A DNA stretch of 39,088 bases from Sulfuricurvum sp. Its GTDB lineage: Bacteria; Campylobacterota; Campylobacteria; Campylobacterales; Sulfurimonadaceae. Where the stretch lies: the NCBI GenBank assembly GCA_011391735.1, contig JAABPY010000217.1, positions 1 through 39,088 on the forward strand. Reading direction: 5' to 3'. Both the position numbers and the translations under genes were made by a program. Numbering within the stretch: the first letter of the stretch is position 1; each line of letters starts with the position of its first letter. The notes beneath the pieces were generated by a model. The model saw nothing but the letters and a program-made list of their open reading frames with translations. It was not told where the DNA came from and ran no database searches. Of this stretch, positions 28,478 to 39,088 are shown in pieces.

Positions 28478-30265
28478 TTATTTGATTGATTCGATGATGG
28501 ATACCCCGTCTGCATCAACAATGCTAATGTGTTTGGGAGATTTTTTTGCATTCTTTTTCTCTACAACAAACAATCGTTGCAAATCTTCACTTGTTAAGAA
28601 AGGGGAATTTTGAGGAATATGGATAACAACCGCACTGACAGAGAGAAGTTTAAACTCTTTGATATTCCCCTCTCTGTCTTCGCTTATGATGCATCCACGT
28701 TCACGATCTTTGGGATCATAAAAATCCGCAACATCGTCAATGAATTTTTGGATGAGCCTCTGTATTTGAAGACATACTGTCTCAAATTGGATGGACTCAT
28801 TTAAAATTGTCCCCATAAAGAAATCATCTCCTCCAATATGACCCTTAAAATAATCAGGTGATAACACTTTGTGCATTAGCTCAGTAAAGAGCAAAATTAC
28901 CCGATCCCCATTACGGAACCCATAATAATCGTTGTAGGGCTTGAAATGGTCAAAATCAAAATAGACAATTATCGCTTCACTATGGGACTCAAGCATTTGG
29001 GCGATGTATTCATTGATTCTGAAATTTCCAGGTAAACGACTTAGTGGATTTTCATCACGCGCTCGGATAAGATTTCGTTCATGAATAACTTCAATCATGA
29101 CTCTTGCACTAAGATACCCAATATAGCGAGACGCTTCAACGATCAAAACCCCTGGAGCACTTGGAGAGAGTGAAAAAAGCTCAATTATTTTTTCCAAGGG
29201 CATCATAATATCCACAATGGGAATAGTTTCAATATAGGTTTCTAAAATAGAAAGATTTGAGGAGCGGTTTTGCGTCAATGCTCTTCCAAATTGGGAGTAA
29301 ATGACCGATTTTAGACGATGTTCATGGATAATACCCTGTGGACAGAATGCAGCATCAATAATGGGGACTAAAAAAATCTCCTTATCCTCTTTGAGCAAAT
29401 CCAACAACGATTCCATTGAATCACCAATAACAATCGGCTTAAGGACTTCAAGTCGTTTGAGAATAATATTTTTATCCCCTTGACAACGCTTATCTTTTAA
29501 TAGTGATTCAATAATATGAGGATATTTGAGCTGAATTTCGGTTGTTGTAATCGTTGGACGCTGAATATAATACCCCTGTACCAAATGGGCACCAATTTCT
29601 TTACAAATTAAAAATTCCCGCTCCGTTTCAATCCCCTCGGCTACAACTTTACATCCTATTAATAAAGCAAGCTGCACCATATTGCGAGTCAAAAGTTTCT
29701 TTTTGGGGTCTTTGTCGATGGAACTCAAAAAGAAGCGATCAATTTTAATAATATTGGGGGTGCAATGGTAAAGAAGTTTGTACCCTGATTGTCCAATACC
29801 AAAATCGTCAATAGCAATACAAAATCCCTCATCATGATAATGCTTCATTAGTTTGGTAAAATGGTCAAGATTGATGATTTCGTTGTGTTCAGAGAGTTCA
29901 AAAACGATACTTCTGTAATCCAAATCATAGCGTTTGAGCAATTGATAAGTATTGCCTTTAGAAAAATTGATCATTTCTAAAACACGATTATCAAGATTAT
30001 AAAAAAGTTTCAAATGGTGATACCCCTCTAGGGTACAAAATTTTTGAATCACTTTTTCACGTAAGACTAAATCAAAACTATAGAGAATATTATTCTCATA
30101 AAGATGATCAAAAAAAGATTCTATCGAGGGGTATCCAAGGGTGTCTGTACCTCGTAAAAGGGCTTCCACTCCAAACGTAATTCCCGAATGAATATCAACA
30201 ATAGGCTGAAAAGCCACCTCTAAAATATCAAAATAACGTTCATAAAAGGGGTGTAGTGGTTCCAT
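28478..30265 (-). CDS. EAL-CBS-GGDEF c-di-GMP turnover protein
   Basis: The soluble protein of about 595 aa has an N-terminal EAL phosphodiesterase domain with the key residues intact: EALLR at 34-38, FELSEH near 123, DDFG at 153-156, KID at 174-176, AEGIET at 209-214 and QGYY. A CBS-pair-like sensory region (about 270-400) follows, with PIVIGDSMESLLDLL and GVLIVEASRYIGYLSAR. The GGDEF domain has FDFDHFKPYND and GHIGGDDFF (GGDDF at 478-482). It may degrade or make c-di-GMP depending on the CBS signal. I take ATG 30265; a TTG at 30295 would add 10 residues but lies within the predicted promoter. No ribosome site is seen before 30265. A Pho-box-like promoter lies directly upstream. Confidence 0.88.
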   Translation of the reverse strand: MEPLHPFYERYFDILEVAFQPIVDIHSGITFGVEALLRGTDTLGYPSIESFFDHLYENNILYSFDLVLREKVIQKFCTLEGYHHLKLFYNLDNRVLEMINFSKGNTYQLLKRYDLDYRSIVFELSEHNEIINLDHFTKLMKHYHDEGFCIAIDDFGIGQSGYKLLYHCTPNIIKIDRFFLSSIDKDPKKKLLTRNMVQLALLIGCKVVAEGIETEREFLICKEIGAHLVQGYYIQRPTITTTEIQLKYPHIIESLLKDKRCQGDKNIILKRLEVLKPIVIGDSMESLLDLLKEDKEIFLVPIIDAAFCPQGIIHEHRLKSVIYSQFGRALTQNRSSNLSILETYIETIPIVDIMMPLEKIIELFSLSPSAPGVLIVEASRYIGYLSARVMIEVIHERNLIRARDENPLSRLPGNFRINEYIAQMLESHSEAIIVYFDFDHFKPYNDYYGFRNGDRVILLFTELMHKVLSPDYFKGHIGGDDFFMGTILNESIQFETVCLQIQRLIQKFIDDVADFYDPKDRERGCIISEDREGNIKEFKLLSVSAVVIHIPQNSPFLTSEDLQRLFVVEKKNAKKSPKHISIVDADGVSIIESIK

Positions 30266-30272
30266 ACTTATT

Positions 30273-30304
30273 AGTATAAAGAAGCAGTATTGCAAAATGG
30301 TTAC
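30273..30304 (-). promoter_or_regulatory. Pho-box-like promoter before the EAL/GGDEF gene
   Basis: On the minus strand GTAAC (30304-30300) is followed at an 11-base period by GCAA (30293-30290), then after 11 bases by TATACT (30278-30273). This is the same geometry as at phoU and pstC. The second half site has C for T. The expected start of transcription (about 30266) falls at the chosen ATG, so the message would be leaderless or the start lies elsewhere. Probable but weaker than the other three sites. Confidence 0.55.
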
Positions 30305-30332
30305 AGAGTGAGCTTTGGGCTCACGCTTGTCA

Positions 30333-31817
30333 TTATTTTGCGATAAAACTCAGACAGTAGTAAATTGATGCACTTAACAATGCGGTGACGGGCAAAGTGA
30401 ACACCCACGAGAGTAAAATTGTTTTTACCATACTTTTTTGCACTCCCCCTTCGGGCTCTGCCACCATCGAGCCTGCAACGGCGCTGGAGACGATATGGGT
30501 TGTACTAACGGGAGCATGGGCAAAGTTGGCTAATAGAATCGTCATCATTGCCATAGCTTGTGCCACGGTAGCTTGCATATAGTTAATGGGTTGAGAGCCG
30601 ATTTTTTCACCAATGGTAATGACAATTCGTTTATATCCAATCATCGTTCCAATACTCAGCGCAAAAGCAACGGCGAGAATGACCCATGTAGGGACGTATT
30701 CGGTTGCGGATACCAACACTTTTCGTTGGGCTGATACATAATCGGATTTATCTTTGTCGGTTATCAAATAGATTTTTTCGACTTGACCAAAGAAATTGTC
30801 CGAACATAAAATAGCGGTATGAACACGCCAGCTATCTTGGGGTGAAAGCTGTGAATACGATTTGATTCCATCCAACTTAGTTGCAATCAAAGAGGTGGTT
30901 TCGAAGACTTGGTTGACGTTACACTCCGCAATGGTGTTTTTTGTTTTCAGGGCACTGATGAGATGTTTTTCACTCACGAGCTTAGTGAGACTTTCATTAT
31001 TATCAGCATAAAATTTTGCTAAATTTGCGGCACTGTCTCGTGTTTGCTTGATTTTATATTCGTGTGAATTCATATCAAGGGCGTAATAGGTTGGCAATAT
31101 TCCAATCAGGATAATCATAATGATACCGATCCCTTTTTGACCATCATTCGAGCCATGGGCAAAACTCACCCCTGCACCCGTCGCAATAATCCCTGTGCGC
31201 ATCCAGAAGTTGGGGCGTTTTCGTTTTGACTCGCTGTCGGGTGTTTTGAAATATTTTGGATTAGAAACAAATTTTTTCGTCGCTTTCATGAGTAAATAGG
31301 CAAATCCAAATCCCAAAAGCGGAGAAAGGGCTAAGGCGGTTAATACACCGTATAAGGCTTTCCAATTGACGCTTTGAGAAAATTCAAAACCATGCATAAC
31401 ACCAAAAACGGTACTAACGCCAATAAGGGAGCCGATAAGGGAATGGGAACTCGAAACGGGTAAACCAAAATACCATGTTCCAAAATTCCAGATGACGGCG
31501 GAAATCAAGAGGGAATAAATCATCACTAACGTTGCATTTTGATTGGATGCGACCATGATGTCCAGTGGCAATAAATGGACAATGACGTAAGCAACGCCGA
31601 TACCGCCCATAATAACTCCTAGAAAATTCATAATACCCGACATAATGACAGAGTATTTCGCTTCCATAGAGTTGGTGTAAATGATCATGGCTACTGAATT
31701 AGCCGTATCGTGAAACCCATTAATTATCTCATAAAAAAGGGCGATACCGAGTGACAGAAGTAGTAAAGTAAGGGTGAGAGTATTGACATTATTGAGTGCT
31801 TCCCAAATGACAGACAT
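30333..31817 (-). CDS. pit: PiT-family inorganic phosphate transporter (PitA-like)
   Basis: PiT carriers import metal-phosphate with protons or sodium through the inner membrane. The 494-aa protein has about ten membrane segments and both family signatures: NGFHDTANSVA near residue 34 and SFAHGSNDGQKGIGII near residue 218. A large soluble loop (about residues 245-355) sits in the middle, as in PitA, and the repeat resumes with PTWVILAVAFALSIGTMIGYKRI and HAPVSTTHIVSSAVAG. AGGA lies 7 bases before the ATG. It lies downstream of pstB with its own multi-copy Pho box. That is unusual, because PitA is often not phosphate-controlled. Confidence 0.93.
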   Translation of the reverse strand: MSVIWEALNNVNTLTLTLLLLSLGIALFYEIINGFHDTANSVAMIIYTNSMEAKYSVIMSGIMNFLGVIMGGIGVAYVIVHLLPLDIMVASNQNATLVMIYSLLISAVIWNFGTWYFGLPVSSSHSLIGSLIGVSTVFGVMHGFEFSQSVNWKALYGVLTALALSPLLGFGFAYLLMKATKKFVSNPKYFKTPDSESKRKRPNFWMRTGIIATGAGVSFAHGSNDGQKGIGIIMIILIGILPTYYALDMNSHEYKIKQTRDSAANLAKFYADNNESLTKLVSEKHLISALKTKNTIAECNVNQVFETTSLIATKLDGIKSYSQLSPQDSWRVHTAILCSDNFFGQVEKIYLITDKDKSDYVSAQRKVLVSATEYVPTWVILAVAFALSIGTMIGYKRIVITIGEKIGSQPINYMQATVAQAMAMMTILLANFAHAPVSTTHIVSSAVAGSMVAEPEGGVQKSMVKTILLSWVFTLPVTALLSASIYYCLSFIAK

Positions 31818-31850
31818 GGCATTATCCTAAAATTAAAAATATGAGGCGCA

Positions 31851-31893
31851 ATAGTATTACGAAACCATTACAACAAGGTTACGAAATTGTTAC
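31851..31893 (-). promoter_or_regulatory. Four-copy Pho box and promoter of pit
   Basis: TTAC occurs on the plus strand at 31857, 31868, 31879 and 31890, a strict 11-base period; on the minus strand this reads as four GTAA half sites. The hexamer TACTAT (minus, 31856-31851) lies 11 bases after the GTAA at 31871-31868, the spacing seen at the other Pho promoters. The last GTAA copy then falls between that box and the -10. The pattern is direct; PhoB as the binding protein is inferred from context. Confidence 0.75.
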
Positions 31894-31931
31894 ACTATTA
31901 TGCCACGATACTCTTTTAAAGGAGTTTTATA

Positions 31932-32717
31932 TCACCCAAATTTCCCTGTAATATATTCTTGGGTTAGTTTCTCTTTGGGGGTAACAAAGAGCTCTTCGGT
32001 ATACCCTAGCTCAATCAAATCACCCAAATACATAAATCCTGTGTAGTCACTTACCCGTGCTGCTTGCTGCATATTGTGGGTAACGATGATGATACTGACT
32101 TTTTCTTTGAGTTCGATAACAAGTTTCTCAATCCCTTGGGTCGAAATAGGGTCAAGTGCCGATGTGGGTTCATCGAAGAGAAGCACCTCGGGTTCAACGG
32201 CGATGGCACGAGCAATACACAAACGCTGTTGCTGTCCCCCAGAAAGACCATTTGCATCGTGCTTGAGACGATCTTGGGTCTCTTTCCAAATAGCGGCATC
32301 TTGGAGTGCTTTTTCAACTCTCCCATCAAGTTCCGATTTATTCTTAATCCCTTTTAGACGTAATCCATAGGCAACGTTATCGTAAATCGACATGGGGAAT
32401 GCTGTGGGTTTTTGGAAAATCATCCCGATACGGGTACGTAGGTGAATAAGATCCTCTTTGGGATCAAGGATATTACGTCCGTCGAAGAGGATTTCCCCCT
32501 CGTACTTGTTCCCTGGATAAAGGTCGTGCATACGGTTAAAAGAACGTAATAGCGTTGTTTTCCCACACCCAGATGGACCTATGAGTGCCGTAATTGAGTT
32601 TTTGGCAATGGGCATGGAGATCTTTTTTAGACTCGGAGCCGTTGCACCTTTGTAGGTGAAATCGAAATTGCGTACGTGGAGGGCACACTCCCCTTTAATA
32701 TCAATAATACTTGCCAT
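31932..32717 (-). CDS. pstB: Phosphate ABC transporter ATP-binding protein
   Basis: PstB drives high-affinity phosphate import by the Pst complex. The 261-aa length fits. Walker A is [11 protein letters not shown], the Q-loop lies in [18 protein letters not shown], the ABC signature is [14 protein letters not shown], Walker B is [12 protein letters not shown], and the switch His is in [15 protein letters not shown]. The [11 protein letters not shown] stretch is typical of PstB. It begins 3 bases after the pstA stop and is the last pst gene; pit follows after 114 bases with its own promoter. Confidence 0.96.
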
Positions 32718-32720
32718 TGG

Positions 32721-33566
32721 TTATTTCCCTTTTTTTGTCGATAATAAGATTAAGCGTCCTAAAATGTTAAGACCCAAAATAAACATAGAGAGGATAAATG
32801 CTGCCGCCCATCCCAGCTGTTGCCAATCTTCATACGGACTGGTGGCGTAGTTAAACATCGTTACGGTCAATGAGGGCATTGCCTGACTCAAATCGGTAGT
32901 GAAGAAGTTGTCATTGAAAGAGGTAAACAGCAATGGTGCTGTCTCTCCAGCAACACGGGCAACCCCAAGTAAAACACCTGTTAAGATACCCGCTTTGGCT
33001 CCGCGATAAACAACATTGAGGATAACTTTGTACTTGGGGGCACCCAATGCAAAAGCCGCTTCTCGTAATGTCCCAGGGACGAGTTGAAGCATATCATCGG
33101 TGGTACGCAAGATAATGGGGATCATTATAATCCCTAACGCAATCGAACCTGCCCACGCACTAAAATGCCCCATGGGTAAAACAACGATAGCATAGACAAA
33201 TGCCCCGATAACAATAGAGGGGGCGGACATCATAATATCACTAATATCACGAATAGTGTTGGCGAGTTTGGAGTTTTTACCGTATTCACTCAAATAGGTC
33301 CCCGCCAAAATCCCCAAAGGGACACCTACTCCTGTTGCCATCCCCACAAGGATGAGTTGACCCACAAGAGCGTGCTTAAGACCACTCTCTTCATATCCTG
33401 GAGGTGCTCCTTCGTAGATAAAGATATTCCAGTTAAGGGCACTTAACCCCTTCATCACCAAAACACCTAAAATCCAAAATAAAAAAGCCAAGGCGATAAT
33501 AGCACTGAGTGTTGAAAATATTAACGCCAATTTATTGATAAAAATTCGCTTTTGTACGGGACTCAT
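32721..33566 (-). CDS. pstA: Phosphate ABC transporter permease PstA
   Basis: PstA is one of two membrane channel subunits of the Pst system. The 281-aa protein has six membrane segments and the binding-protein-dependent permease loop (EAAFALGAPKYKVILNVVYRGAKAGILTG), in which PstB docks. GVPLGILAGTYLSEYGKN and the TAPLLFTSF segment are standard PstA landmarks. Its ATG overlaps the pstC stop by one base (TAATG), so the two permeases are translationally coupled. The call is firm; pairing with PstC fixes the substrate as phosphate. Confidence 0.94.
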   Translation of the reverse strand: MSPVQKRIFINKLALIFSTLSAIIALAFLFWILGVLVMKGLSALNWNIFIYEGAPPGYEESGLKHALVGQLILVGMATGVGVPLGILAGTYLSEYGKNSKLANTIRDISDIMMSAPSIVIGAFVYAIVVLPMGHFSAWAGSIALGIIMIPIILRTTDDMLQLVPGTLREAAFALGAPKYKVILNVVYRGAKAGILTGVLLGVARVAGETAPLLFTSFNDNFFTTDLSQAMPSLTVTMFNYATSPYEDWQQLGWAAAFILSMFILGLNILGRLILLSTKKGK

Positions 33567-34414
33567 TAGGCTCTCCTAGCTTTTCGTAAAAAGTAAAATT
33601 TAGCAACCGCAATCACCACAAAACTCATAATAAGAAGGGTTAATGCTAGACCAAACAAGCTTGAAAAATACAGCGACGTATCGGCTTCGGTAAACTCATT
33701 GGCAAGGGTGACTGGAATAGAGGTTGTTGGACTGAGGATGGAGGTGGGGACTTTGTGAACATTCCCCATAACGAAGGTTACCGCCATTGTCTCACCAATT
33801 GCCCGCCCTAGTGCCAAGATTAAAGAACCGATAATCCCCGCCTTTGCGTAGGGGATAATAACGTCTTTGATAACGTCCCATTGGGTACCACCAAGTGCGT
33901 AGGCGGACTCTTTGAGAATGTCGGGAGTCGTGTTCATCGCATCGCGTGTCACTGCTGCCATAAAAGGGAGAATCATAATCGCCAAAACAATCCCTGCTGC
34001 AAGAAGACCAATCCCCATACCACCAGTAAGGTCACGTAGGATAGGGACGAAATAAAACAGTCCCCACATTCCATAAATGACCGATGGGATAGCGGCGAGA
34101 AGCTCAACACTCACCCCGAAGAACCCTTTGATTTTAGGGTGTGCAATTTCACTGAGGAAAATAGCGACACCAATCGCAATGGGAATAGAGAGAAGCATCG
34201 CCAAAAAGGTAGAGGCAACGGAACCGAAGATGGCGGCATACGCCCCGAATTTATCGACGTTGGGAGCCCACTCGTCTTTGGTTAGGAAATCCAATCCAAA
34301 TGTCTGCATCGCCTCGGTCGATTGATTGAACAATACGACAAATATCCATGCAACGATCAAGAGGATCAAAAATGCACTGATACGGGTCAGGTTTTGAAAG
34401 AGTTTATCGATCAT
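33566..34414 (-). CDS. pstC: Phosphate ABC transporter permease PstC
   Basis: PstC is the partner permease of PstA. The 282-aa protein has six membrane segments, the N-terminal FVVLFNQSTEAMQTFGLDFL region, the GVAIFLSEIAHPK loop and the permease motif KESAYALGGTQWDVIKDVIIPYAKAGI. RAIGETMAVTFVMGN is a strong PstC marker. It is the first gene of pstCAB here; no gene for the periplasmic phosphate-binding protein PstS precedes it. A Pho-box promoter at 34443-34474 lies just upstream, with a predicted 22-base leader that contains an AAGG ribosome site. Confidence 0.94.
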   Translation of the reverse strand: MIDKLFQNLTRISAFLILLIVAWIFVVLFNQSTEAMQTFGLDFLTKDEWAPNVDKFGAYAAIFGSVASTFLAMLLSIPIAIGVAIFLSEIAHPKIKGFFGVSVELLAAIPSVIYGMWGLFYFVPILRDLTGGMGIGLLAAGIVLAIMILPFMAAVTRDAMNTTPDILKESAYALGGTQWDVIKDVIIPYAKAGIIGSLILALGRAIGETMAVTFVMGNVHKVPTSILSPTTSIPVTLANEFTEADTSLYFSSLFGLALTLLIMSFVVIAVAKFYFLRKARRA

Positions 34415-34442
34415 GCCAAGCCTTGCCTAAAAATTTTGGGCA

Positions 34443-34474
34443 ATTTTAGTATAGGATGATTACAACGGCGTTAC
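34443..34474 (-). promoter_or_regulatory. Pho-box-like promoter of pstCAB
   Basis: On the minus strand GTAA (34474-34471) recurs 11 bases later as GTAA (34463-34460), and TAAAAT (34448-34443) follows after 11 bases. A TATACT hexamer overlaps at 34453-34448 as an alternative -10. The first half site contains the stop codon of the upstream nucleotidyltransferase gene. The layout equals that before phoU. Confidence 0.72.
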
Positions 34475-35871
34475 GAAGTACCCCTTGGGAGAGTCTTGAG
34501 GTAGATAGTTAGCCATCCCATTGCCTCTTCATGGGTTGCAAAAACACCATCAAGCTGTGCGGTATAGGCATTATGGAGCAGTGTTTTAAATGCACGTGAA
34601 GGAGAGAGTCCAAGTGCAATAAGATCACGCCCCAAAAGCAAAGGGGAAGGGGGAGCATACAGCACTCCCAATCTATCGGCGCATTGATAAAGCCACTCTC
34701 CTGCTTCAAAATGCTTCGGTACCTCACCCACAAAATCACGCCCATAAAAATCAGCCTGCGCAACACGAATCAAATCATCAAGACATACATGCGTAGAGAG
34801 ATGACGAATAGCACTATCGCAAGCGTTGGATTTAAAAAATTTACGGACAGCTCCATGGTACCGTACGAGAGGGAGAATACGCTCAACTAGCTCTTTTTCA
34901 TTGGTGATCCGCTCCAAAAAAGTTCGGGCAATCTCCACCCCTGCTTCTGCGTGTTTGGGGGCGTTGAGAACACCGTCGCAAATGATCGTTGTAGAGGGTT
35001 TCCCCACATCGTGTAATAAAAGTGCAAAGAGGAGAATTAAATCCCGTTTGGGGTTCCCCGTTTTTTGCGTTGCCATGGTATCTAGTGCCATAAGGGTGTG
35101 AGTCCAAACATTCCCCTCGGGGTGAGAAAAACTATCTTGAGGTGTTGCTTCCAAATAAAGGAGCTCTTTAAAAAAAGCAAGTCCCCCCATCTCTTTGAGC
35201 AATGCAAATCCAAGGGAAGGGTTGGGGGAGAGGAGGAGCAATTTTTTGAGCTCCTCAAAAATCCTCTCTTTGGGGAGTTCATTGAGTGCCCCGTGCTCAA
35301 TCATTTCACGGCATAACCGTAATAAATCCTCATCGCACGCAAGCGCATACCGTGCGGCAAACTGCACGGCACGCAAAATGCGCAACGGGTCATCCCCAAA
35401 CGTTGTTTTATCAACATGGCGCAACTGTTTCGCCTCTAAATCGTTTATTCCACCATAAGGGTCTAAAAAGGTATGAGAGAGGGGATCATATCCGATGGCA
35501 TTGATCGTAAAATCACGACGGCGAGCGGCGGTGGCAAAATCAAGATCATTGCACCACTGTATTTCAAATCCCTTATGCCCAAAGCCGTGTTTGGATTCGA
35601 TACGGGGGGGAGAAAAATCGAGGTTAAACCCTCCGTAGGAAAGTTTGAGAACCCCGAAGCTTTTACCAACAAGATTGACTTTCCCAAACTCCCCCAAAAT
35701 TTTTTCGAGCTGGTCGATGGAGCTAACTCCATAGAGTTCGATGTCAATATCGGTAGTGGGTAGAAAAAGGAGGGCATCACGGACATACCCCCCGACGATA
35801 ATGGCTTTGATCCCATGGTTTTTTAAGTGCGTCAGCAACCGCTCAAGAGGTGGATTGAGGGTAATCACCAC
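34471..35871 (-). CDS. cca: tRNA nucleotidyltransferase (CCA-adding) with HD domain
   Basis: The 466-aa protein belongs to the class II polymerase-beta-type nucleotidyltransferases that build or repair the CCA end of tRNA; poly(A) polymerase is the close alternative. The head domain shows GGYVRDALL and the metal-binding DIDIELYG. Motif B RRRDFTINAIGYD and the D-loop GDDPLRILRAVQFAARY follow. An HD phosphohydrolase domain (HDVGKPS, with HTLMALD and a later HGAVRKFF) fills the C-terminal half, as in multifunctional CCA enzymes. It overlaps phoR by one base and is probably made from the phoU-phoB-phoR transcript. The one tRNA in this window already encodes CCA, so repair seems the likely role. 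Confidence 0.88.
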   Translation of the reverse strand: MVITLNPPLERLLTHLKNHGIKAIIVGGYVRDALLFLPTTDIDIELYGVSSIDQLEKILGEFGKVNLVGKSFGVLKLSYGGFNLDFSPPRIESKHGFGHKGFEIQWCNDLDFATAARRRDFTINAIGYDPLSHTFLDPYGGINDLEAKQLRHVDKTTFGDDPLRILRAVQFAARYALACDEDLLRLCREMIEHGALNELPKERIFEELKKLLLLSPNPSLGFALLKEMGGLAFFKELLYLEATPQDSFSHPEGNVWTHTLMALDTMATQKTGNPKRDLILLFALLLHDVGKPSTTIICDGVLNAPKHAEAGVEIARTFLERITNEKELVERILPLVRYHGAVRKFFKSNACDSAIRHLSTHVCLDDLIRVAQADFYGRDFVGEVPKHFEAGEWLYQCADRLGVLYAPPSPLLLGRDLIALGLSPSRAFKTLLHNAYTAQLDGVFATHEEAMGWLTIYLKTLPRGTS

Positions 35872-37277
35872 TACGATTTCTTAGTGGCGTGGACAAGGGG
35901 ATGGATCGAAAAGGCAAAAGTAGACCCTTTTCCAAGGGTTGATTGTATGGAGAGGGTCGTTCCATGAAGACGGAGGATATAGCTGACGATAGAAAGCCCC
36001 AATCCCATCGAGTTATCCCAGCGGTTCTTTTGGACACGGTAAAATTTATTGGTGATATTCTCAAGCTCACTGGGGGCAATACCGATGCCTCTATCGGTCA
36101 CCGTAAGCACAGTGTCCGTGAGCTTTAAGGTCACCTCCTCTTCAGAGTATTTGAGGGCATTATCGATGAGGTTGGTGATGACCATCTCTATCATTGTTTT
36201 ATCGGCATAGACACTTTTGTGAAAGGGCGCAAAGAGGATCTTACGATTAGCATATTTACTGTGTAAAAGGGAGACAATATCGGCACACACCTCCCCCATA
36301 TCAAAATGGGTCAGCTTGGCGGAGAGATCATTGTTCTCAAGTTTTACTGAGAGGGTGAGACGATCAAGCATCATGGTTATTTTACGGGTATTGGAGAGGA
36401 TCTTTTCGAGAAACTTATTCCGAATTTTGGGATCAATATGGGGATCATCATGGAGTGTTTCGGCGTATCCCATAATGGCGGCAATGGGGTTTTTGAACTC
36501 ATGGCTAATGGCGGAGAGGATGTCATTTTGCTGCTTATTGATGAGTCGTAAACGGGCGGTGTACTTGCGTTTTTGTTTATCACGATTACGTAACTTTTTG
36601 ACCAAATTTTTGAGCAAAAGGGAGAGATACAAAAACTCTTGAAAATAGTGGGGCTTGTAGACGGCTTGATAATTTTTTTCGGCAATGGCATTGAGATATT
36701 GGGTGATTTGACCAATATCATGACGCGTTCGTTTCGAGATTTTGTAGGCGATCATAAGGGCAATCAAGATAAAAACAACAAACGAGGCAAGAAGTCTAAA
36801 CCACAGCTCATAAAAGTGGTGCATCACCCCACCCAAATCCGTAGAGAGACGAAAGTAGAGTACTGTGTGGGGAAGGGTGATTTTTTGGGCGACGTAGATG
36901 AAGTCCGTTTGGAGTGTTTTGGAGTACCGTATGACCATCCCGTACGGCTTGCTCATGGCCTCCATGATTTCGACACGTCCTGAGTGATTTTCCATCGACC
37001 GTTTATCGGCATTTGTTTCGGCAATGACCGTCCCGTTTTCATCGATAATGGTAACCCTAAAATCACTTCTTTTGGCAATGGAGCGGGCTAAGGTATCATA
37101 ATCGGGTGACGTTGCGATTTGGGGGACGAGAAGATTAATCGTTTGGAGTAATCGCTGTTCATTATCCTTAATCACCATGGATTTAAGGGTATAAAAACTA
37201 ATAAGGGAAGCAATCAACAGTGAGGCAACAAAAAGCCCCAAAATATTGAGAAAAAAGACTTGATGTATTCTTAACAC
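35871..37277 (-). CDS. phoR: Sensor histidine kinase, PhoR-like
   Basis: The kinase probably senses phosphate supply, through Pst and PhoU, and phosphorylates PhoB. The 468-aa chain has two membrane segments (about 8-30 and 160-180) around a periplasmic domain of some 130 residues. A linker helix follows, then a HisKA domain with AISHEFKNPIAAIMGYAETL (phospho-accepting His259) and a HATPase domain with NLIDNALKYSEE, DRGIGIAP and GLGLSIVSYIL. The long periplasmic domain differs from E. coli PhoR, which has almost none, so it could read another signal. The start is GTG, overlapping the phoB stop by 7 bases. Confidence 0.88.
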   Translation of the reverse strand: MLRIHQVFFLNILGLFVASLLIASLISFYTLKSMVIKDNEQRLLQTINLLVPQIATSPDYDTLARSIAKRSDFRVTIIDENGTVIAETNADKRSMENHSGRVEIMEAMSKPYGMVIRYSKTLQTDFIYVAQKITLPHTVLYFRLSTDLGGVMHHFYELWFRLLASFVVFILIALMIAYKISKRTRHDIGQITQYLNAIAEKNYQAVYKPHYFQEFLYLSLLLKNLVKKLRNRDKQKRKYTARLRLINKQQNDILSAISHEFKNPIAAIMGYAETLHDDPHIDPKIRNKFLEKILSNTRKITMMLDRLTLSVKLENNDLSAKLTHFDMGEVCADIVSLLHSKYANRKILFAPFHKSVYADKTMIEMVITNLIDNALKYSEEEVTLKLTDTVLTVTDRGIGIAPSELENITNKFYRVQKNRWDNSMGLGLSIVSYILRLHGTTLSIQSTLGKGSTFAFSIHPLVHATKKS

Positions 37278-37945
37278 AGTGTATAGCCAACTCCCCTCAC
37301 GGTTTTAATGTACTCTTTAGACTTATCGGGATCAATTTTCTCTTTGAGACGATTGATAGCAACATTGACGGTGCGGTCTTGGTACACTTCATCTCCACCC
37401 CAAACACTCTCGAGAAGGGTGTCCCGATCTAAAACAACGTTTTGATTGGAAACAAGGGCATAAAGAAGATCAAACTCAAGCTTGGTAAGCTCAATGGGAT
37501 GGGTATCGATAGTAACGGTACGAGCAGGGAGATTTAAATGAATGTCCCGATAGATAACGATCCCGCTATTGGAAACTTTTTTCGTTCGTCGTAAAATTGC
37601 CTTAACCCGAAGTGCGAGCTCTTTCATACTGAAAGGTTTGGTGAGATAATCATCCCCTCCCCTCTCAAACCCCTCTTCGATATCGCTCTCTTTGTCTTTT
37701 GCGCTGATAAAGATGACTGGAGTTTGAATTCCACGTTGACGCAATGATGCGACAAATTCAGACCCTTCAGCCCCGGGGAGATTACGATCCATAAGGATCA
37801 AATCAACACTCTCTTCTTCAAGTACTTTGGTCACACGTTTGGTATTGAGAAACCCTATGGTCTCATACCCCTCACGAGTGAGATTAAATTCAATGAGTTC
37901 GAGGATATCCACTTCATCTTCGACGATTACTATTAATGCATCCAA
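37271..37945 (-). CDS. phoB: Response regulator, PhoB-like (OmpR family)
   Basis: The receiver domain shows IVEDEVD, the phosphorylated Asp in LILMDRNLPG (about residue 53), the switch Ser in ISAKDKESD and Lys in TKPFSMKELALR. The C-terminal winged helix has KLEFDLLYALVSNQNVVLDRDTLLESVWG and RTVNVAINRLKEKI, the DNA-reading part. I favour a TTG start at 37945 because AGGAG lies 7 bases upstream; the longer frame from 37966 would include that ribosome site. Placement between phoU and phoR and above pst makes PhoB the natural reading. It is the likely binder of the 11-bp-period GTAA boxes found here. Confidence 0.9.
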   Translation of the reverse strand: MDALIVIVEDEVDILELIEFNLTREGYETIGFLNTKRVTKVLEEESVDLILMDRNLPGAEGSEFVASLRQRGIQTPVIFISAKDKESDIEEGFERGGDDYLTKPFSMKELALRVKAILRRTKKVSNSGIVIYRDIHLNLPARTVTIDTHPIELTKLEFDLLYALVSNQNVVLDRDTLLESVWGGDEVYQDRTVNVAINRLKEKIDPDKSKEYIKTVRGVGYTLC

Positions 37946-37962
37946 AGTCAGGCTCCTTTGCC

Positions 37963-38634
37963 TCAATTATAGATTCGTATCTCGCCACCTTTTTGGGCGT
38001 AGAGCAAAAGGGCAGCGATATTGACGGTGCGATCTCCTGTTCGTTCAAGTTTACGAAGGGTTCCCAAAATCTTAACATACTCAACAGAAAGCTCACCCGA
38101 AATAACAATATTATTCAGAAGCTCTTTTTCCATAATCGAGAAAATATCATCATTTTTGGACTCTTCCACCATCACTTTACGATAAAGCTCTTCGGTATCA
38201 CACTCGTCCATTGCGTTCAAACACGCAGCGATGTATTGTAGCGCATTCAGAGTCGTTTTGTGTAGCTGAATGATACTTGGAATAAGAATCGTAAGATCAC
38301 ACCCTCTTACGCAGTGCTCTTGCAGTCGTCGATTGTATTTTTTCACCGCATCACCGATACGATCGAGTTCATTGGTCATTTTTAAGAATGCGACCAATTG
38401 ACGTAACTCCTCAGCTTCAGGACCAAAAAGGGCAAAGGTTTTGATAATTTCGTTATCAATATTATTGGCTTCACTTTGAAGATTTTTTAAATACGTTTTG
38501 GAGAGGTCGTAATGAGAATCCTCATGCGCTTCAAACCCTTTTAGCGTCTCTTCACTAGCAAGGATAATTTCCCCTACCAATGAACTAAGCATTGATCGAA
38601 TGGCAGTCATTTTGTTTTCATAGCGTGGGAGCAT
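37963..38634 (-). CDS. phoU: Phosphate signalling regulator PhoU
   Basis: PhoU links the Pst transporter to the PhoR kinase and restrains the response when phosphate is ample. The 223-aa protein is all helical with two PhoU repeats. Marks are NIDNEIIKTFALFGPEAEELRQLVAFLKMTNELDRIGD in the first and YVKILGTLRKLERTGDRTVNIA in the second, each ending in the metal-binding E/D-R-x-G-D type motif. It is the first gene of phoU-phoB-phoR-cca. A Pho-box promoter with a perfect TATAAT lies upstream, giving a leader of about 22 bases. Confidence 0.93.
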   Translation of the reverse strand: MLPRYENKMTAIRSMLSSLVGEIILASEETLKGFEAHEDSHYDLSKTYLKNLQSEANNIDNEIIKTFALFGPEAEELRQLVAFLKMTNELDRIGDAVKKYNRRLQEHCVRGCDLTILIPSIIQLHKTTLNALQYIAACLNAMDECDTEELYRKVMVEESKNDDIFSIMEKELLNNIVISGELSVEYVKILGTLRKLERTGDRTVNIAALLLYAQKGGEIRIYN

Positions 38635-38662
38635 TTACTTACCTTTAAAAATAATAAGGGGG

Positions 38663-38694
38663 ATTATAAGAAGTTTAGATAACGAAAAGGTTAC
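38663..38694 (-). promoter_or_regulatory. Pho-box-like promoter of phoU-phoB-phoR
   Basis: On the minus strand GTAA (38694-38691) is followed at 11 bases by GTTA (38683-38680), and a perfect TATAAT (38668-38663) comes 11 bases later. The predicted start is near 38656. The same plan occurs at pstC, pit and the EAL/GGDEF gene, which implies that PhoB controls its own operon. The IS256-type element ends only 35 bases upstream of the first half site. Confidence 0.75.
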
Positions 38695-38729
38695 AGAGAA
38701 ATTCACAGGGATGAAATCTTAGGAAAAAA

Positions 38730-39088
38730 GGGACTGTAAATAATTCTGTGTCAATTTGATAAAATTGGACACACAGAAGGAAATACAGATGAAAATAGAA
38801 ATAGATGTTGCAGATTTTGCAGAGAAAATTAAATCAGGGAAAGGGCTATCAGGTAAAGATGGTGCTTTGACCGCATTAGTTAAGCAAATCACAGAGATGA
38901 CCCTCCAAGCAGAATTAGAAGCTCATTTGGCGCAAGACCTAGAAAAAAACCGTAAAAATGGTTATATGTCAAAGACTATGAGAACCGAACATGGGGAGTT
39001 TGAACTAGCAACTCCAAGAGACCGTAATGGGAGTTTTGAGCCTCAGATTGTAAAAAAAAGCCAAACAAATCTCTCGGATGAAATAGAA
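38730..39088 (+). mobile_element. IS256-family insertion sequence, left end (truncated by window)
   Basis: The element begins near 38730 with GGGACTGT, followed by AATTCTGTGTC, which resembles the terminal inverted repeats of IS256-family elements. An inverted repeat (TGTGTCAATTT at 38747-38757 and AAATTGGACACA at 38762-38773) lies between the end and the transposase start. A hairpin there may limit read-through from outside. The right end and any target duplication lie beyond the window; the 8 bases before the left end (38722-38729) are the candidate duplication. Confidence 0.8.
38789..39088 (+). CDS. IS256-family (Mutator-type) transposase, 3' end outside window
   Basis: One hundred N-terminal codons are seen. 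The text MTLQAELEAHLAQDLE, KNRKNGYMSKTMRTEHG and ELATPRDRNGSFEPQIVKK matches the N-terminal part of IS256/MULE-type DDE transposases (the LEAHLGY, NGY-KT-T-G and PRDR-G-FEP-I signatures). The catalytic DDE residues would lie downstream, beyond the window. A GAAGGAAA ribosome site precedes the ATG. Whether the gene is intact cannot be judged. Confidence 0.93.
   Translation, partial: MKIEIDVADFAEKIKSGKGLSGKDGALTALVKQITEMTLQAELEAHLAQDLEKNRKNGYMSKTMRTEHGEFELATPRDRNGSFEPQIVKKSQTNLSDEIE

Follow-up and report, generated by a model that had tools for sequence, protein, structure and literature searches.

A 39,088-nt stretch of a Sulfuricurvum genome (the window; contig C205 of a 2.14-Mb, 229-contig assembly that is 85% complete) contains four minus-strand promoters of one layout, upstream of phoU, pstC, the phosphate permease gene pit and a gene for an EAL/GGDEF protein. 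These sites are very probably Pho boxes, with the PhoB-type response regulator encoded beside them as reader, and the EAL/GGDEF promoter would in addition produce a leaderless mRNA. From the box, its geometry, its gene association and conservation, the spacing between -10 hexamer and ATG, and the EAL catalytic motifs, all of which can be read from the DNA, we infer what binds, where transcription starts and how it responds to phosphate, as well as enzyme activity and phenotype, along the following lines. Two direct half sites of consensus YTGTAAY, 11 bp apart, would replace the -35 element, with a -10 hexamer placed 11 nt past the second GTNA. When phosphate is limiting, the PhoR/PhosS-type kinase would phosphorylate the PhoB-type regulator of the same operon, and two regulator molecules would bind the half sites head to tail and recruit sigma70 polymerase. 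Targets in the window would comprise phoU-phoB-phoR, pst and pit, and those outside it pstS, a porin-like gene and phoX. At the EAL/GGDEF promoter, which has the same box, transcription would begin with the start codon, so that the mRNA for a cyclic di-GMP (c-di-GMP) phosphodiesterase would be leaderless. Cells starved of phosphate would then have less c-di-GMP and be more inclined to leave the surface.

The original prediction, made from the letters of the window, described GTAA-type half sites repeated at 11 bp upstream of these four genes, with a -10-like hexamer beginning 11 nt past a half site. Read-back confirmed every coordinate and both spacings (Table 1): the 11-bp direct repeat occurs at four of four promoters, and the distance from the second GTNA to the -10 hexamer is 11 nt at each. 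The term ‘GTAA-type’ fits the first half sites exactly but not all of the second, which read GTTA at phoU and GCAA at EAL/GGDEF, so that it denotes a family of words rather than a single word. The pattern GTAA-N7-G(T/C)(A/T)A-N11-TANNNT has four matches in the window, all on the minus strand and all at these promoters, with none on the plus strand and none in 20 one-strand windows simulated with the same dinucleotide content. For each of seven promoters of the genome, the simulated chance of a match per 150-nt promoter was at most 0.0007 (3000 simulations each). Because the pattern was shaped on the four sites, the independent evidence is that from the rest of the genome and from relatives, not the window count alone.

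Across the genome, GTAAY-N4-TT-GTAAY has six exact matches, at pit, pstC, phoX, the porin-like gene and two places that are probably chance occurrences (L001, within a gene, and L003, which has no -10 hexamer); the reversed pattern, used as a control, has two. The phoX gene (Pfam PhoX) has its box about 50 nt upstream, pstS, identified by family, likewise carries a box, and pstS, the porin-like gene and phoX all show the N11 spacing to the -10 hexamer seen in the window promoters. The porin-like gene, given the working label ‘OprP-like’, has no Pfam match and an NCBIfam porin match below the cut-off. A sequence model was also built from 62 of 83 sites of relatives, with the own genome and its two nearest relatives excluded; the other 21, which were similar to others, out of register or poor in the second half site, were dropped by hand, so that the model favours strong boxes. 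Its scan of the 2.14-Mb genome, in which 150 of 970 weak candidates were scored and matches kept at E ≤ 10, returned 14 matches. Ranks 1-5 are phoU, pstS, EAL/GGDEF, pstC and the porin, ranks 6-9 the ppk1-like gene (half site only), C142, pit and phoX, and ranks 10-14 C181, a second porin site, C36, C185 and C133:19049. The rank of EAL/GGDEF is helped by its own kind, as the 62 training sites include 7 EAL sites from relatives; the genome has 23 EAL-family matches, and only the window’s gene sits at one of the 14 model matches. The genome-wide scan proposed with the original prediction, run here with a sequence model instead of a pattern, thus finds matches at the head of phosphate genes and not randomly scattered. 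At the ppk1-like (polyphosphate kinase) gene, named by eye from its N-terminal sequence, a near-identical single half site is followed by a -10 hexamer (C172:8518-8546; L094), and the same half site and -10 occur in five same-genus loci chosen for that partial match (L286, L287, L288, L289 and L300).

Conservation was assessed at 80 named loci of relatives that have the regulator, using a matrix from the seven own-genome sites and a score cut-off of 15. At or above this score, a box was present upstream of phoU (45/50), pstS (41/44), the porin gene (31/32), pstC (28/37), the EAL gene (14/17), pit (4/6) and phoB (10/80), while the inner operon genes phoR (0/71), pcnB (0/39), pstA (0/36) and pstB (0/36) had none. 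Among other open reading frames (ORFs) of the relatives, 24 of 557 reached the same score (15 of 481 away from pho genes), some of them encoding porin-like proteins or phosphoesterases. Half sites were separated by a gap of 6 in 161 of 180 upstream regions, with any other gap from 2 to 14 in at most 19. The gap to the -10 hexamer was 10 in 126 of the 180 and 11 in 11, with any other in at most 11, in a count that left out hexamers such as TATACT. With near-zero expectation in the window and fixed spacings in relatives, the earlier argument that the spacing speaks against chance is borne out.

The box also extends beyond the family. A scan of 150 genomes of the class, at E ≤ 0.01 and under stricter filters, found a match in 39, and 29 loci, one each from 29 of these genomes, were read: 24 lie at pst/phoU genes, two at porin-like genes and one at a DUF3450-like gene, and two are ambiguous. 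PstS-like and porin-like genes were named by eye from the N-terminus at L217, L222, L223, L224, L227, L234, L236, L237 and L239. The 20 loci that come from other families all sit at pst/phoU genes, and the box therefore belongs to several families of the order and not to one genus. The site had been proposed as a lineage-specific Pho box; a Pho box kept at the same genes in relatives is what was found, across several families rather than in a single lineage. In the own genome, in relatives and in the class scan alike, the box is associated with phosphate genes.

The arrangement is that of E. coli phoA (NC_000913.3), GTCA-N7-GTCA-N11-TATAGT, with GTCA replaced by GTAA. The same frame and spacing agree with the earlier equation of the 11-bp period with that of PhoB boxes, and the GTAAY-type half site does differ, as was also stated, from the CTGTCAT of E. 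coli. A review describes Pho boxes as differing among species (PMC4415409), so that CTGTCAT is not required for membership. Similarly, the E. coli Pho box takes the place of the -35 element (PMC3616915), and a fixed position relative to the -10 hexamer in place of a -35 is seen here as at E. coli phoA. TTGTAA was considered as a sigma70 -35 element and rejected, its spacing to the -10 hexamer being 11 or 22 and not about 17. The base-contacting residues given for E. coli PhoB are T194, V197, R201 and R219 (PMC3264566, PMC3973317). Among 94 aligned regulators, of which 93 cover the recognition helix and some come from the same locus, T194, V197 and R201 are kept in 93 of 93 helices and R219 in 89 of 94 regulators, and the Asp at E. 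coli position 53 (the phospho-acceptor) is present in all 95 rows, E. coli included. In contrast, E. coli D196, H198 and R203 are replaced by N, A and K throughout the 93 aligned helices. PMC3264566 assigns D196 no contribution to DNA contacts. It is a guess that the D196N change caused the C-to-A change of the half site. The title of Wosten et al. 2006 describes the C. jejuni phosphate system as non-classical; its box is reportedly GTTTC-N6-GTTTC, which would differ from the GTAAY-N6-GTWAY found here. That system, PhosS/PhosR of a related bacterium, controls phosphate uptake genes and phoX (PMC9449129, PMC3197622).

For the EAL/GGDEF promoter, a search at E ≤ 1e-60 located 113 full-length or partial orthologues in 110 of 200 family genomes. 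Upstream DNA was taken for 90 places (the 23 left out being short, partial or lower-scoring), and three of these (L114, L163 and L209) gave no usable upstream region or match, leaving 87 orthologues, the window’s own (L104) included, which were scored with a matrix that excluded the EAL site. An own box scoring at least 13 was found in 71 (at least 15 in 56), a weaker one of the same layout (12.1-12.6) in three and none in 13. In 69 of the 71 boxed orthologues, with protein identities down to about 45%, the -10 hexamer ends 5, 6 or 7 nt before the ATG; in the window the distance is 7 nt, and close spacing is present in all 33 same-genus orthologues scored, the window’s included. Shine-Dalgarno (SD)-like words were absent from all 69, and with the word list used for the other genes one of the 71 has such a word, that one having a 30-nt gap. 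The other boxed genes have median gaps between -10 hexamer and start of 32 nt (phoU), 32 nt (pstS), 29 nt (porin), 22 nt (pit) and 29 nt (pstC), and SD-like words in 45/45, 41/41, 31/31, 5/5 and 19/29, respectively. With a -10 hexamer ending 5-7 nt before the ATG and no SD-like word, the EAL/GGDEF mRNA should be leaderless, as a normal start 7 nt past the -10 would place its first base at the ATG or within a base or so. It thus appears to be leaderless in the window and in many relatives. A leaderless phoB in Sulfurimonas was considered and rejected, the median distance from -10 to start there being 27 nt and SD-like words occurring in 10 of 16. Leaderless mRNAs mapped in C. jejuni and H. pylori have a sigma70 -10 element directly before the ATG and no ribosome site, and are described as little conserved among Epsilonproteobacteria, with the exception of one gene (PMC3847290). 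In contrast to those cases, the EAL start is shared across two large genera of a single family and is tied to an activator box.

Several findings weigh against a PhoB-read box at these promoters. The regulator scores 188.1 bits against the NCBIfam PhoB model (TIGR02154), where the cut-off is 296.2, PhoB being the best among the models listed, and the kinase and PhoU fall under the curated NCBIfam cut-offs for PhoR and PhoU. The pstC promoters of 9 of the 37 relatives score under the cut-off, several of them retaining half sites with the -10 hexamer one base further, in part of the genus the second half site of phoU is weak (GTGAY), and that of the EAL promoters is often degenerate (GAAAT in 24 of 74, GTGAC in 14 of 74). 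Furthermore, 111 of the 150 class genomes gave no match at the threshold and filters used, five of the 14 model matches (C142, C181, C36, C185 and C133:19049) stand at no nameable phosphate gene, and a sixth (C172, ppk1-like) has a single half site only. It is conceivable that the boxes are real and are read by another regulator of the OmpR/PhoB family, PhoB being only one reader, since related genomes have several paralogues of this family and some Sulfurimonas-type loci encode PhoB-like regulators in tandem, two or three of them, that share the recognition-helix core TVNVAI. However, the targets are mostly phosphate uptake genes, the regulator itself is encoded in an operon that has a box, and the recognition helix hardly varies among the aligned regulators, which leaves this explanation with little probability.

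The AT-richness of half sites and -10 hexamers, together with the 970 weak candidates of the first model pass over the genome (150 of them scored), might instead suggest ordinary sigma70 promoters with coincidental GTAA words. Such coincidence is very hard to credit against the near-zero expectation in the window, the fixed 11-bp and 11-nt spacings in relatives and the lack of any site at score 15 before phoR, pcnB, pstA and pstB, and a 17-nt spacer counted from the -10 hexamer would set a -35 element between the half sites, not on them. Chance and AT-richness were therefore rejected, being contradicted by the spacing in relatives, the model scan and the window simulation. For the EAL/GGDEF gene, a working transcript might also come from an unseen promoter further upstream, the close -10 hexamer being incidental and the mRNA not leaderless; read-through from pit, just upstream, is possible, and in 2 of the 71 boxed orthologues the first ATG lies 30-36 nt from the -10 hexamer, which also counts against a leaderless start. 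This is unlikely given the 5-7 nt spacing kept in the other 69 at identities down to about 45%, and even a longer leader would offer ribosomes no site in these 69, which have no SD-like word.

The EAL/GGDEF protein itself has the features of a phosphodiesterase. The EAL catalytic motifs EALLR and DDFG are present in all 45 aligned rows (the window counted twice), and the GGDEF motif reads GGDDF in 44 of them, departing from the GG(D/E)EF of diguanylate cyclases. The predicted structure (mean predicted local distance difference test, pLDDT, 78.9; predicted template modelling score, pTM, 0.60) resembles solved EAL phosphodiesterases over residues 4-254, the comparison being mainly over residues 4-250. 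The middle of the protein has no Pfam domain at E ≤ 1, and its CBS-like appearance is an impression only. The protein likely hydrolyses c-di-GMP in low phosphate. A precedent is RapA of P. fluorescens, a phosphodiesterase whose gene is under PhoB and through which low phosphate leads to lower c-di-GMP and biofilm detachment (PMC3032545). The proposed case is alike in being a Pho-regulated phosphodiesterase gene but belongs to another phylum; its protein has EAL first and GGDDF last, and its mRNA is predicted to be leaderless.

The 13 EAL orthologues without an own box are also linked to one, as all 13 lie last in a cluster with an upstream box (score at least 15.8). Each of these boxes was the highest-scoring site over 2.3-3.6 kb of sequence, which is less stringent than scoring a fixed region upstream of a gene, and about 23-32 nt separate the end of its -10 hexamer from an ATG. 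Nine of the EAL genes stand behind an OlsF-like gene of roughly 570 aa (L246-L248, L251-L255 and L257); the ornithine-lipid synthase OlsF was identified at L251 (826 bits, cut-off 620), by a domain match at L253 and by likeness at the others, and at L248, L254 and L255 some 260-290 nt, containing another ATG, lie between the upstream box and olsF. OlsF makes phosphorus-free ornithine lipids; it was not found in the own genome, whose assembly is 85% complete. In three others, the EAL gene follows a chemotaxis receptor gene (L258 by Pfam, L249 and L250 by likeness), and at L256 the boxes lie downstream of olsF, the nearer of them being followed by a 134-aa ORF and then by the EAL gene. At L067 too, a methyl-accepting chemotaxis receptor gene stands behind a Pho box ahead of the EAL gene. 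These boxed receptor/EAL operons recall the tlp2-phoX operon of C. jejuni (PMC6250842). In another family, L236 and L237 have a box before a pstS-like gene that is followed by an EAL gene, and at L242 a boxed pstC comes after an EAL gene. That the EAL gene keeps an upstream Pho box in several arrangements is stronger evidence of phosphate regulation than any single promoter, and by its gene context the predicted c-di-GMP phosphodiesterase looks like a fixed member of the Pho regulon. It is possible, if rather doubtful, that the Sulfurimonadaceae-type phosphodiesterase is an obligatory Pho output, reached through its own leaderless promoter or through olsF, receptor and (in the other family) pstS operons, and that the leaderless form is a device favouring translation when ribosomes are scarce in phosphate starvation.

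Among open-access titles and the starts of abstracts, a scope outside which most subscription papers lie, no published Pho box was found for the Epsilonproteobacteria/Campylobacterota, Sulfurimonas included, nor, among papers on leaderless genes and PhoB or on phosphate and c-di-GMP in Sulfurimonas, any description of this box or of this EAL/GGDEF gene. For many sulfur oxidisers of this large group, the box would serve as a workable Pho-box model with which phosphate regulons can be proposed from sequence. It would also tie phosphate starvation to c-di-GMP through a promoter with conserved start-codon spacing, and the EAL/GGDEF gene would offer a clear-cut natural example of an apparently leaderless gene under an activator.

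Table 1 Putative Pho boxes and genes of the phosphate cluster in the window. Half sites are given by starting position.
Feature	Coordinates	Strand	First half site	Second half site	-10 hexamer	Basis
Pho box and -10 of phoU, GTAAC-N6-GTTAT-N10-TATAAT	38663..38694	-	38694	38683	TATAAT, 38668-38663	read-back; top model match in whole genome, E 6.9e-6
Pho box and -10 of pstC, GTAAC-N6-GTAAT-N10-TAAAAT	34443..34474	-	34474	34463	TAAAAT, 34448-34443	read-back; model rank 4
Pho box of pit, four half sites 11 bp apart (31893, 31882, 31871, 31860)	31851..31893	-	31882	31871	TACTAT, 31856-31851	read-back; model rank 8, E 0.05
Pho box and -10 of EAL/GGDEF gene, GTAAC-N6-GCAAT-N10-TATACT	30273..30304	-	30304	30293	TATACT, 30278-30273	read-back; model rank 3; conserved in orthologues
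phoU	37963..38634	-				Pfam PhoU
PhoB-type response regulator, presumed reader of the box	37271..37966	-				family searches, alignment
PhoR/PhosS-type histidine kinase	35871..37277	-				family searches
tRNA nucleotidyltransferase/poly(A) polymerase-like gene within the operon	34471..35871	-				family search
pstC	33566..34414	-				family searches
pstA	32721..33566	-				named by position and translation
pstB	31932..32717	-				named by position and translation
pit, PHO4 family phosphate permease	30333..31817	-				family searches
EAL-GGDEF protein, 595 aa, predicted c-di-GMP phosphodiesterase, predicted leaderless mRNA	28478..30265	-				ATG at 30265

Within the cluster, the pstC box starts at the 3' end of the tRNA nucleotidyltransferase/poly(A) polymerase-like gene. 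By regulator identity, the closest named loci are L008 (91%) and L009 (90%), from metagenome-assembled genomes (MAGs) with the labels Campylobacterales and Helicobacteraceae; most of those next in line are Sulfuricurvum MAGs, which makes the host a Sulfuricurvum-like member of the Campylobacterota. In L008 and L009, pstS and phoU point away from each other, and their two boxes are separated by about 20 bases (L008 9254-9270). In the own genome, homology to these loci ends between the two boxes (window 38634-39088; L090): the phoU box adjoins a Mutator-family transposase (38756-39088), and pstS retains its box on contig C133 beside another gene. This split may be an assembly error.

Boxes were also seen at genes of other kinds. 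They occur upstream of DUF3450-type coiled-coil genes at L071 and L081 (Pfam) and at L078, L082 and L240 (by eye), and at L222, L225 and L234 a small ORF of roughly 100 aa, which at L222 has no Pfam match, lies opposite or beside the boxed porin-like gene. Weaker boxes, at genes named by eye, precede a probable TonB-type receptor (L290, L293 and L296), a sensor or chemotaxis-type membrane protein (L301, L303 and L304), an elongation-factor-G-like gene (L294) and a probable cytochrome peroxidase (L305).

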